A stretch of DNA of 64,000 nucleotides from a virus. Position 1 is the stretch's first letter, and each line of letters begins with the position of its first letter. Positions 57,400-61,145 of this stretch are shown here, piece after piece. Position numbers and translations under genes: made by a program. Below the pieces are notes generated by a model. That model was given only the letters and a program-made list of their open reading frames with translations, was not told where the DNA came from and ran no database searches. The stretch spans positions 1 through 64,000 of IMG/VR virus record IMGVR_UViG_3300045119_000457. One strand, 5' to 3'.

Positions 57400-57582
57400 A
57401 TGATCAGGCCCTACGCCATCGAGATGGACGAGCCGATCCCGTGCGAGGTGTGCGGCACGCTGAACGCCTGCCGGCCGTTCGGACCGAACGCCGAGCTGGT
57501 GTGCTACAGCTGTGCCATCAAAGACCGCGCCGCCTTCCTGCGCGGCTTCCGGCGCTGCTTCGAAAAAGAAGGAACCGCCTGA
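57400..57582 (+). CDS. Small zinc-ribbon protein in the lysis cassette (60 aa)
   Basis: MIRPYAIEMDEPIPCEVCGT has CEVCG, then VCYSCAIK: two CxxC pairs, a zinc ribbon. The stop overlaps the endolysin ATG as TGATG, so the two are translated together. Possible lysis regulator; unknown. Confidence 0.65.
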   Translation: MIRPYAIEMDEPIPCEVCGTLNACRPFGPNAELVCYSCAIKDRAAFLRGFRRCFEKEGTA

Positions 57583-58034
57583 TGACGACCATGCTCACCG
57601 AACATTTCAGCCTCGAGGAATTCCTCCACTCCGACACCGCCGAGCGCGAATCGATTCCAAACGTGCCGGATGAAAGCGCGCTCAAGAACCTGACGCGGCT
57701 GGCCAGCGTGATGGAAGAGGTCCGCGCGATCTGCGGCAACTATCCGGTGACGATCACGTCAGGCTACCGCGGGCCCGAGCTCAACGCGGCGATCGGCGGG
57801 GCTAGTAACTCAGCCCACCTCTACGGCCTGGCCTGCGACTTCACCATCGCCGGCGCCGGCCCGCCGATCGCGATCTGCACGACGCTCGAGATCTACCTCG
57901 AGCCGCTCGGCATCGACCAGCTCATCCTAGAATATGACGACTGGACCCACCTTGGCCTGGTCGACGAATCGATGGCGCCGCGCCACCAGGCGCTGACCAT
58001 CAATAACTCGGGCACGACAACCGGCTTTGCTTGA
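57582..58034 (+). CDS. Endolysin, M15 family peptidase (150 aa)
   Basis: TITSGYRGPELNAAIGG, then SAHLYGLACDFTI gives the SxHxxGxAxD zinc motif (H79, D86), and DDWTHLGL gives the third ligand (H123). These are M15A-type (VanY-like/L-alanoyl-D-glutamate peptidase) active-site elements, cleaving peptide cross-links of peptidoglycan. No signal peptide, so holin is required. TGATG coupling with the zinc ribbon. Confidence 0.9.
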   Translation: MTTMLTEHFSLEEFLHSDTAERESIPNVPDESALKNLTRLASVMEEVRAICGNYPVTITSGYRGPELNAAIGGASNSAHLYGLACDFTIAGAGPPIAICTTLEIYLEPLGIDQLILEYDDWTHLGLVDESMAPRHQALTINNSGTTTGFA

Positions 58035-58112
58035 GCGGCGGGGCGTATATGATGCGGCCGCTGCCTGACCACACGGGCAGCTCCACAACCACCTGCAGAA
58101 GGGATTCGCCAC

Positions 58113-58586
58113 ATGCCTATCGTGTCATTGCGTCCAATGGGAGAGAGCGGCCTCTACCACATGCACGTACTCGAGGGCGCCGTCGACCCGGGCTTCGGCT
58201 CGGGCCGGCCCGATCGCCCGAACCAAGGCCTGCCGGGCTACGGCCATCCTGACCAGGGCCTGCCAGGCTACGGCCACCCCGATCAAGGGTTGCCGGGCCA
58301 CGGCCACCCCGGCAATCGGCCGCCGGGGAGCTGGGGCGGACGCCCTGACAACAGCCTGCCGGGAGGCGGTGGCGGCCTGCCCGACACCAAGCCGCCGCAG
58401 CTCCTGCCGGGCTACACGCTGGTGCTGGTGCGCGGCCAGGACGGCAAGTGGCACTACGCCGCCATCATGCCGGGCAGCGCCCCGCCGAAGCCGCTGCCCG
58501 AGCCGCCGCACCCCGACCAGGGCCCGGTCGACCCCAACGCGCCGCCGGCGCCCGACCAGACACTGCCGCCGCTCGCCCCGGCCTGA
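58113..58586 (+). CDS. Pro/Gly-rich repeat protein (157 aa)
   Basis: It has a ribosome site (AGAAGGG). From about residue 36 it repeats DQGLPGYGHP three to four times, then GG-rich and Pro-rich linkers and YTLVLVRGQDGKWHYAAIMP, a small beta module. It ends in PHPDQGPVDPNAPPAPDQ. Probably extracellular or virion-associated, possibly flexible spacer; unknown. It follows the endolysin on the same strand and is closed by the hairpin. Confidence 0.7.
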   Translation: MPIVSLRPMGESGLYHMHVLEGAVDPGFGSGRPDRPNQGLPGYGHPDQGLPGYGHPDQGLPGHGHPGNRPPGSWGGRPDNSLPGGGGGLPDTKPPQLLPGYTLVLVRGQDGKWHYAAIMPGSAPPKPLPEPPHPDQGPVDPNAPPAPDQTLPPLAPA

Positions 58587-59144: not shown

Positions 59145-59228
59145 CTAAGAACGCAATGCCAGGAACAGGATGATGGCAAGGCCGAGCACGATCAAGGCGT
59201 AGGGCAGGACATCGAAGAGCCCGGTCAC
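59145..59228 (-). CDS. Tiny membrane peptide (27 aa)
   Basis: Begins with GTG at 59228, overlapping the TGA of the Acb2-like gene (GTGA). It reads MTGLFDVLPYALIVLGLAII then LFLALRS, a single hydrophobic helix with a basic end. Coupling suggests it is made together with the Acb2-like protein. Confidence 0.45.
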   Translation of the reverse strand: MTGLFDVLPYALIVLGLAIILFLALRS

Positions 59229-59473
59229 TTGGTGAGGTGTTTGACCGCCCAGAATACCGCTTCCTCCATCTTGGTCTTGGCGAGTGAAATCTCGCGGCTC
59301 TGGCCGAAGCTGTCGACCATCTCGATGAACTCCAAGCCCAAGTCCTTGACGGTCTTCATCTTGAGTTTTTCATCGTCGCTGAGCACGCGGTACTCGTGGC
59401 GCATCACGTTGTTGGTGACGCGCTGGTCGGAAGTCGAGGGTACGAACTCGGGGTTGGTGTCGGGGACGCTCAT
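59225..59473 (-). CDS. Acb2-like (Acb2/Tad1 hairpin) cyclic-nucleotide sponge candidate, anti-CBASS (82 aa)
   Basis: The central segment reads HEYRVLSDDEKLKMKTVKDL, then FGQSREISLAKTKMEEAVFW and AVKHLTK. It matches the short helical-hairpin family of Acb2: an early YRxL..E segment, a Lys (K43) 15 residues after the Tyr (Y28), the same spacing as Y11/K26 of characterised Acb2, and a SRE..LAKTKxEEAxxWAVKHxT second helix. Known Acb2 proteins form hexamers that soak up cyclic di- and trinucleotides and block CBASS. Length fits. Binding and function are inferred. Confidence 0.72.
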   Translation of the reverse strand: MSVPDTNPEFVPSTSDQRVTNNVMRHEYRVLSDDEKLKMKTVKDLGLEFIEMVDSFGQSREISLAKTKMEEAVFWAVKHLTK

Positions 59474-59479
59474 GTGACC

Positions 59480-60676
59480 TCACTTAACCGGCGTCAAATT
59501 GACGGTGCCGGTGAAGGTGCCGTTCAGCGTGCCGCTGACCGTGCCGGTGTAGTTGGGCGGCGGTGTCGGGGTTCCGCCACCGCCGCCCCCGCCGCCACCG
59601 CCGCCCGGATCGGGCGGCGTCGTGCCGCCGCTCGACATCGCGCCGAACTGCGCCACCGTGGCAGCCGTCGGCTTGCAGTTGCCGACGACGTAGCAGACGC
59701 CGAAGAAGCGCTCGACGCCCGCCATATCGGGTTGATCCAACATTTCATATACAACCACCTCGGCAAAGACGTCGCTGTACTTGTTGACGACCTCGTTGAG
59801 GGCCTGGGTCAGCGCCGTGACGCAGGTCCCACCGCCATCGGTATTGCCATCATAAATTTCACCGCAATTGGTTTCGTTAAAAAATACCGGCACGCCGAAT
59901 TTCTTCGACGCGGCCTTGGCTTGGCCGAGGTACTTGTCCATCCAGTAGCCGGTGTCGTGGACTCGGGGATAATAGTGGAAGCTCACGTAGTTGAAATTCC
60001 AGCCCGACGCCTTGGCCATGTCGAGGAACCAGCCGTCGCCCGAGGGGTCGCCGGCACACTGAGACTCGGCGGCGTCATTGTTGCAACTCATGATGTTGAT
60101 GGTGGTTTTTAAGCCCGCGTGCAACTCGGCCTCGGCCTGCTCGACGCCACGCACGCTCGGCAGCATGGCGTTGATGCGATCCTGCGCGCCTTGCTTGGGC
60201 GCATCTTGTTCATTGCCAATTTCCCAAATCTTGATGTCGTTGGCGTAGCGTTTGGCGATCGTGTAGGTCTGGGCTTGCGAGGCGGGATAGAGCATCGGCC
60301 GCACCGTGATGCCGTATTTTTTCGCCAATGGCACAACCTTATCCAAGATGTCGAAGCTCGTTGCGCCGACATCGGTGCGCCACAGCGTGAGATGGTTTTG
60401 CTGCATCCACTGCATGCGCTGCTCGACCTCGGCCAGCGGATAGTAGGCGCGGCCATCATGACCGTTCAAACCGAATGTAATGGCCGTCGTCCCGGCCGCG
60501 GCCTGCGGCCGCACGATGCCGGTATGGCCGGCGATGCGCGGTATGCGCACCTCGGAAGGCGCTGACTTGGCGGGTTCGGGCGCGGCAGGCTTGGGCTGCG
60601 CCAGGACAGGATTGGGGCTGGCGAGAAGCAACGGCAGAACGGCGGCGAACTTCAACATGTTGAGAATTTTGGCCAT
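59480..60676 (-). CDS. Secreted glycoside hydrolase, clan GH-A-like (398 aa)
   Basis: I chose ATG 60676: GGAG at nine bases and a signal peptide follow (MAKILNMLKFAAVLPLLLAS-PNPVLAQ). Residues 61-330 read as a (beta/alpha)8 barrel: NHLTLWRTDVG, KIWEIGNEQD with likely acid/base E156, FNYVSFHYYPRVHDTGYW, and VPVFFNETNCGE with likely nucleophile E268, then VVVYEMLDQP. A Gly/Pro linker (GGGGGGGGGG) leads to a short beta tail YTGTVSGTLNGTFTG. It probably degrades an extracellular or capsular polysaccharide. An exported enzyme in a phage is uncommon. Substrate unknown. Confidence 0.75.
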   Translation of the reverse strand: MAKILNMLKFAAVLPLLLASPNPVLAQPKPAAPEPAKSAPSEVRIPRIAGHTGIVRPQAAAGTTAITFGLNGHDGRAYYPLAEVEQRMQWMQQNHLTLWRTDVGATSFDILDKVVPLAKKYGITVRPMLYPASQAQTYTIAKRYANDIKIWEIGNEQDAPKQGAQDRINAMLPSVRGVEQAEAELHAGLKTTINIMSCNNDAAESQCAGDPSGDGWFLDMAKASGWNFNYVSFHYYPRVHDTGYWMDKYLGQAKAASKKFGVPVFFNETNCGEIYDGNTDGGGTCVTALTQALNEVVNKYSDVFAEVVVYEMLDQPDMAGVERFFGVCYVVGNCKPTAATVAQFGAMSSGGTTPPDPGGGGGGGGGGGTPTPPPNYTGTVSGTLNGTFTGTVNLTPVK

Positions 60677-60749: not shown

Positions 60750-61145
60750 CTATTTTTTCCGCGATTTTTTGGGTCCCCTAGGGTCCCCTTTTTCAATTTT
60801 CAATTTTCCCGTAGCCCTCCGCCTAGGGTCCCCTTTTTCAATTTTCAATTTTCCCGAAGCCCTGTGTAGGCGCTCCGTAGGCGGCCACGGCGGGGCGCCG
60901 CGGCCCGGCTTTCGGTCGCTTCGACGACCACCATCTGGCCTGGCCCTGAGTGAGCGCTCACTAGGTAGTGAGGCCTCACTCATCTTCAACCGATGCCGAT
61001 CGTCGTCGGTCGCCACCAGGCCGCGCGCCATCTCGAGCTTCTCGGCGCATGAGCTGCACCAGGTCCAACCATCGAGGCGCTCGACGATCAGGCGTCGCCG
61101 GCCGCAGCAGCTGCAACGATCAAGTGAGTGAGGCCTCACACCCAT
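60750..61145 (-). CDS. Zinc-ribbon protein with repeated basic C-terminus (131 aa)
   Basis: ATG 61145 has AAGGAG at 11 bases. The N-terminus MGVRPHSLDRCSCCGRRRLI has CSCC and then TWCSSCAEKLEMARG (CSSC), a zinc ribbon. The C-terminal 35 residues contain GKLKIEKGDPR twice, encoded by the 41-bp DNA repeats. The basic repeat may bind nucleic acid. It is the first gene after a divergent-like operator (61187-61217). Confidence 0.6.
   Translation of the reverse strand: MGVRPHSLDRCSCCGRRRLIVERLDGWTWCSSCAEKLEMARGLVATDDDRHRLKMSEASLPSERSLRARPDGGRRSDRKPGRGAPPWPPTERLHRASGKLKIEKGDPRRRATGKLKIEKGDPRGPKKSRKK
60778..60863. repeat. Two 41-bp direct repeats inside the zinc-ribbon gene
   Basis: 60778-60818 and 60823-60863 are the same apart from one base, starting CTAGGGTCCCC and ending AGCCCT, with an AT-rich core containing CAATTTTCAATTTTC. 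Four bases separate them. In the minus frame they code for the GKLKIEKGDPR repeats. Confidence 0.8.

Follow-up and report, generated by a model that had tools for sequence, protein, structure and literature searches.

Gene organization at the acb2-like locus

The DNA analyzed here is a 64 kb stretch, referred to below as the window, of an IMG/VR virus record of 69,193 bases. Besides terminase subunits, an SU10-like portal protein and an M15 endolysin, which place the acb2-like gene in a phage genome, it encodes a VapE-type primase/helicase. Neither Rfam nor a tRNA scan returned a match in the window. The acb2-like open reading frame (ORF) translates into 82 residues, MSVPDTNPEFVPSTSDQRVTNNVMRHEYRVLSDDEKLKMKTVKDLGLEFIEMVDSFGQSREISLAKTKMEEAVFWAVKHLTK, and its previously proposed coordinates (Table 1) proved correct; the strand, which had not been given, is minus. 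Long antisense frames are common in the window.

Table 1. Features at and around the acb2-like locus (positions in the window).
Feature	Position	Strand	Description and basis
M15 peptidase endolysin and Pro/Gly-rich protein	57400-58586	plus	Strand opposite to the head genes
Membrane peptide	59145..59228	minus	27 aa, hydrophobic, single-pass; ORF list; GTG start, 4-nt overlap with the acb2 stop codon
acb2-like gene	59225..59473	minus	82 aa, ATG start; PF24729, AlphaFold2 model, Foldseek, PDB profile search
Codons of the clade motif R18-x-x-N21-N22-x-x-R25-H26-x-Y28-R29	59387..59422	minus	Invariant in 66/66 sequences; coordinates computed from the ORF frame
Glycosidase-like protein	59480-60676	minus	Secreted; signal peptide, Pro/Gly linker, Thr-rich tail
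Two direct copies, ~35 nt each	~60777-60856		agggtcccctttttcaattttcaattttcccg; spotted by eye

The glycosidase-like gene lies just upstream of the acb2-like gene and its product shows no match in Pfam or PHROGs. The two direct copies are located in the intergenic region upstream of this gene.

The small membrane peptide that an earlier note had described as coupled to the acb2-like gene is indeed encoded there; its start codon overlaps the acb2 stop codon, and it is probably translationally coupled. Coupled transmembrane peptides were also found after acb2 in six other loci (L002, L003, L011, L040, L078, and L089), three of which (L002, L003, and L011) contain the closest relatives and encode a hydrophobic peptide of 40-44 aa in the equivalent position. 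The C-terminal tails of these three peptides resemble each other, but not that of the window peptide. Coupled peptides follow 6 of 101 acb2 loci compared to 26 of 2480 control long ORFs (p = 0.001), a comparison that has spurious ORFs among its controls and a near-identical pair, L002 and L011, among its positives. In this pair of loci, acb2 also has the window's M15 endolysin and Pro/Gly-rich protein in its vicinity. A lysis-related or membrane-effector role is possible for the 27-aa peptide.

Family membership and predicted fold

A search of the 82-aa protein against Pfam-A yielded a single match, PF24729 (Acb2/Tad1 hairpin), which covers residues 28-81 with an E-value of 1.8e-17 and lies, at 63.7 bits, far over the gathering score of 27 bits. 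The same model matched all 66 aligned sequences. No match over the cut-off was obtained in 14 control genomes. Together with the ungapped alignment of Y28 and K43 described below, the E-value and the clean control genomes argue that the resemblance to Acb2 is not due to chance. The Tad2-like profile PF11195 did not match the protein. NCBIfam gave no match, and the PHROGs matches were limited to families of unknown function. When a profile built from the 82-aa protein and nine relatives was compared with the PDB, it recovered Acb2 homolog 43 (9ptq), Acb2 of p26 (8ixz, 8h2j), T4 Vs.4 (7uq2) and Tad1 chains; a deeper profile returned the same set of Acb2, Vs.4 and Tad1 matches.

AlphaFold2, supplied with the 66 aligned sequences, predicted a monomer with two helices (residues 33-54 and 60-80; pLDDT 94-98) behind a short N-terminal helix of low confidence (residues 16-20). 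The second helix that had been noticed in the sequence (SREISLAKTKMEEAVFWAVK) corresponds to the predicted helix 60-80. No strand was predicted in the protein and, consequently, no Tad1-type N-terminal beta-sheet domain. In a Foldseek search against the PDB, ranks 1-8 were all occupied by Acb2 or Vs.4 chains (probability 0.96-0.99), with Tad1 chains ranking lower; the E-values of these top matches are weak (0.23-0.87), which reflects the small size and helical hairpin nature of the protein. The suggestion of an Acb2-like protein is thus upheld by the PF24729 match and by the predicted two-helix hairpin, for which Acb2 and Vs.4 rank highest in the PDB. The product is very probably a small helical member of this known family, and we estimate a probability of roughly 0.88 that the gene encodes an Acb2-family cyclic-oligonucleotide sponge. 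Family membership was tested by profile and the hairpin fold by prediction; ligand, oligomer and biological effect are presumed by homology.

Predicted ligand residues and a clade-specific motif

The YRVLSDDE segment and the 15-residue spacing of Y28 and K43, on which the initial comparison with Acb2 had been based, are both present in the protein. In the profile alignment to the solved chain 8h2j, the positions of Y11, K26, and R67 of Acb2 are occupied by Y28, K43, and R60, respectively; the first two align without a gap, in agreement with their proposed equivalence to Y11 and K26. In Acb2, Y11 and K26 contact the ligand in the dinucleotide pocket. Y28, K43, and R60 are invariant in all 66 aligned sequences and are predicted to be ligand residues.

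In T4 Acb2, dinucleotide binding was reported to be disrupted by the Y8A mutation (PMC12657218, PMC12657230), which affects a residue that may correspond to Y28. T67 aligns with the threonine in the AKT motif of T4 Vs.4, probably T68 if the assumed numbering offset is correct, and T68M in Bas35 was reported to lower binding (PMC12657230). A point against a sponge is the apparent replacement of Phe82, which stacks on the ligand in T4 Acb2, by the invariant T81, a position extrapolated one residue beyond the alignment.

Invariant residues among the 66 sequences comprise R18, N21, N22, R25, H26, Y28, R29, L31, K36, K43, R60, A65, E70, and T81. Part of this conservation is expected, as the search patterns for relatives included R[TV]xNN[VA][MV]RH and row extraction demanded R..NN..RH.YR; the invariance of K43 and R60 was forced by neither. 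The N-terminal RxxNNxxRH element (R18-H26) lies upstream of the region aligning with solved Acb2 and outside the profile alignments. This upstream segment and the missing inter-helix insertion of ~24 residues indicate that the acb2-like protein belongs to a distinct, modestly novel clade of the Acb2 family.

Distribution and gene neighborhoods

Relatives are encoded in at least 287 viral stretches and 33 bacterial contigs and, where the source is named, derive nearly all from Alphaproteobacteria, as phages and prophages. The named phages comprise Sinorhizobium phage Aussie, Caudoviricetes ctCJ8213 and Dunaliella viridis virus SI2, in which the gene is annotated as hypothetical. A plasmid search for relatives gave no match. 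In one locus (L044:5989-6714), an acb2-like hairpin is in frame with a long C-terminal extension composed of a coiled-coil-like and an Ig-like stretch, possibly a natural fusion or a frame artefact.

The genomic contexts of the acb2-like genes vary and include head-tail joining, replication/recombination and lysis genes. Across 102 loci, no conserved neighbor was detected except for a Tad2-like gene (PF11195) in six of them (L004, L012, L030, L033, L066, and L088). The two largest neighbor clusters turned out to be antisense shadows of the acb2-like gene and not true neighbors. A Pfam-model search of 76 whole viral records (2.53 Mb) identified exactly six Tad2-like genes, all of them in these loci. 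They share the strand of the acb2-like gene, are situated 0-405 nt from it on either side and in four cases abut it (0-1 nt or overlapping); random placement would give such proximity with p ~5e-7. The window's own record contains no PF11195 match. Tad2 acts as a sponge on Thoeris signals as well as on certain cyclic dinucleotides (PMC12043709), and the pairing therefore provides independent support for an anti-signalling role of the acb2-like gene.

A first comparison for CBASS appeared positive, with 5 of 20 gene-carrying genomes against 8 of 289 class members. This class-level signal was discarded because the background is rich in small genomes and because the signal vanishes within one family: among Sphingomonadaceae, a SMODS synthase was found in 1/10 genomes with the gene and 48/388 without it, and hence no enrichment of CBASS synthases. 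The Sphingomonadaceae result is neither for nor against CBASS as the target.

Proposed mechanism and alternative explanations

By homology, the acb2-like protein would form a compact hexamer of hairpins in which pairs of protomers bind cyclic dinucleotides via Y28 and K43, and three-fold pockets, perhaps involving R60 as the equivalent of R67, could accommodate cyclic trinucleotides. During infection, such a sponge would capture second messengers produced by CBASS or related systems and leave them uncleaved; the effector would then stay inactive and the cell would not die before phage maturation. All of this, from the hexamer and its binding to the range of ligands and the inhibition of CBASS, is extrapolated from Acb2 proteins already studied.

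The protein may also be a sponge whose main target lies outside CBASS, e.g., the cyclic ADP-ribose of Thoeris, the cyclic oligoadenylate of type III CRISPR, or another nucleotide alarm, with the N-terminal RxxNNxxRH reshaping the pocket. The invariance of that motif outside the solved Acb2 alignment, the second-helix motif SRE...ALTHxEEAxxW common to Tad1, the pairing with the Thoeris sponge Tad2 and the absent CBASS enrichment are all in favor of this scenario. Nevertheless, it is considered rather unlikely, given the strict retention of the Acb2 dinucleotide-pocket residues Y28 and K43 and the lack of the N-terminal beta-sheet domain described for Tad1 (PMC12043709). An Acb2 descendant that has been co-opted for a different task, for instance as a structural protein or an assembly factor, could account for the position of the gene between head-tail adaptor and stopper in Sinorhizobium phage Aussie. 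This is improbable in view of the 102 loci, which lack a conserved neighbor and present replication, structural and lysis contexts alike, as expected of a cargo gene; the invariant ligand-pocket residues and the Tad2 pairing likewise speak against it. The frequency of long antisense frames in the window might finally suggest that the ORF is a product of chance on a GC-rich strand, a notion with a negligible probability that is refuted by the Pfam match at 1.8e-17 and by conservation at the protein level across the viral stretches and bacterial contigs counted above.

An Acb2-family sponge would soak up bacterial alarm nucleotides that otherwise trigger antiviral self-destruction. The proteins collected here form an additional, well-delimited clade of probable sponges for immune signals that is common in phages of Alphaproteobacteria, from which no experimentally tested sponge was found. 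As the entries for close homologues in deposited phages still read "hypothetical protein", immediate improvement of their annotation is possible. The location of acb2-like beside tad2-like genes is a genomic link which suggests that phages bundle sponges directed at different alarm molecules. A more tentative proposal, to which we assign a low probability, is that the RxxNNxxRH segment serves this clade as a clamp for one or more signals unlike those of known Acb2, and that some phages deploy it with Tad2 as a two-gene sponge cassette covering CBASS and Thoeris together.

Comparison with known systems

Close homologues in named phages, AUSSIE_37 of Sinorhizobium phage Aussie (WPJ67960.1) and DVVG_00015 of Dunaliella viridis virus SI2, share 58-62% identity with the window protein, but their gene neighborhoods differ from that of the window. 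Tad1 (Thoeris anti-defence 1) has the hairpin domain and the SRE...EEAxxW motif in common with the window protein, which is devoid of the N-terminal beta-sheet domain of Tad1. Acb2 homolog 43 (9ptq), a short form of 76 aa, is the best single-sequence match in the PDB (E = 0.008) and shares the motif gREkSvfkTKlEEAmfxA, with an alignment confined to residues 33-79.

Identity to solved Acb2 chains amounts to ~16-20%. T4 Vs.4, the Acb2 of phage T4 (7uq2), is the best Foldseek match and exhibits the same AKTK..EAxxWA second helix at 16-17% identity; in contrast to the window protein, it lacks an arginine where R60 lies in the profile alignment, and its Phe82 is seemingly a threonine in the window protein. 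Acb2 of Pseudomonas phages (p26; 8h2j, 8h2x, 8ixz) likewise forms a two-helix hairpin behind a short N-terminal helix and, at ~20% identity, shares the YRxLSxEE start of helix 1 as well as the residues Y11, K26, and R67, which have equivalents in the window protein. The latter differs from it in missing the ~24-residue insertion between the helices and in carrying a longer N-terminus with the conserved RxxNNxxRH.
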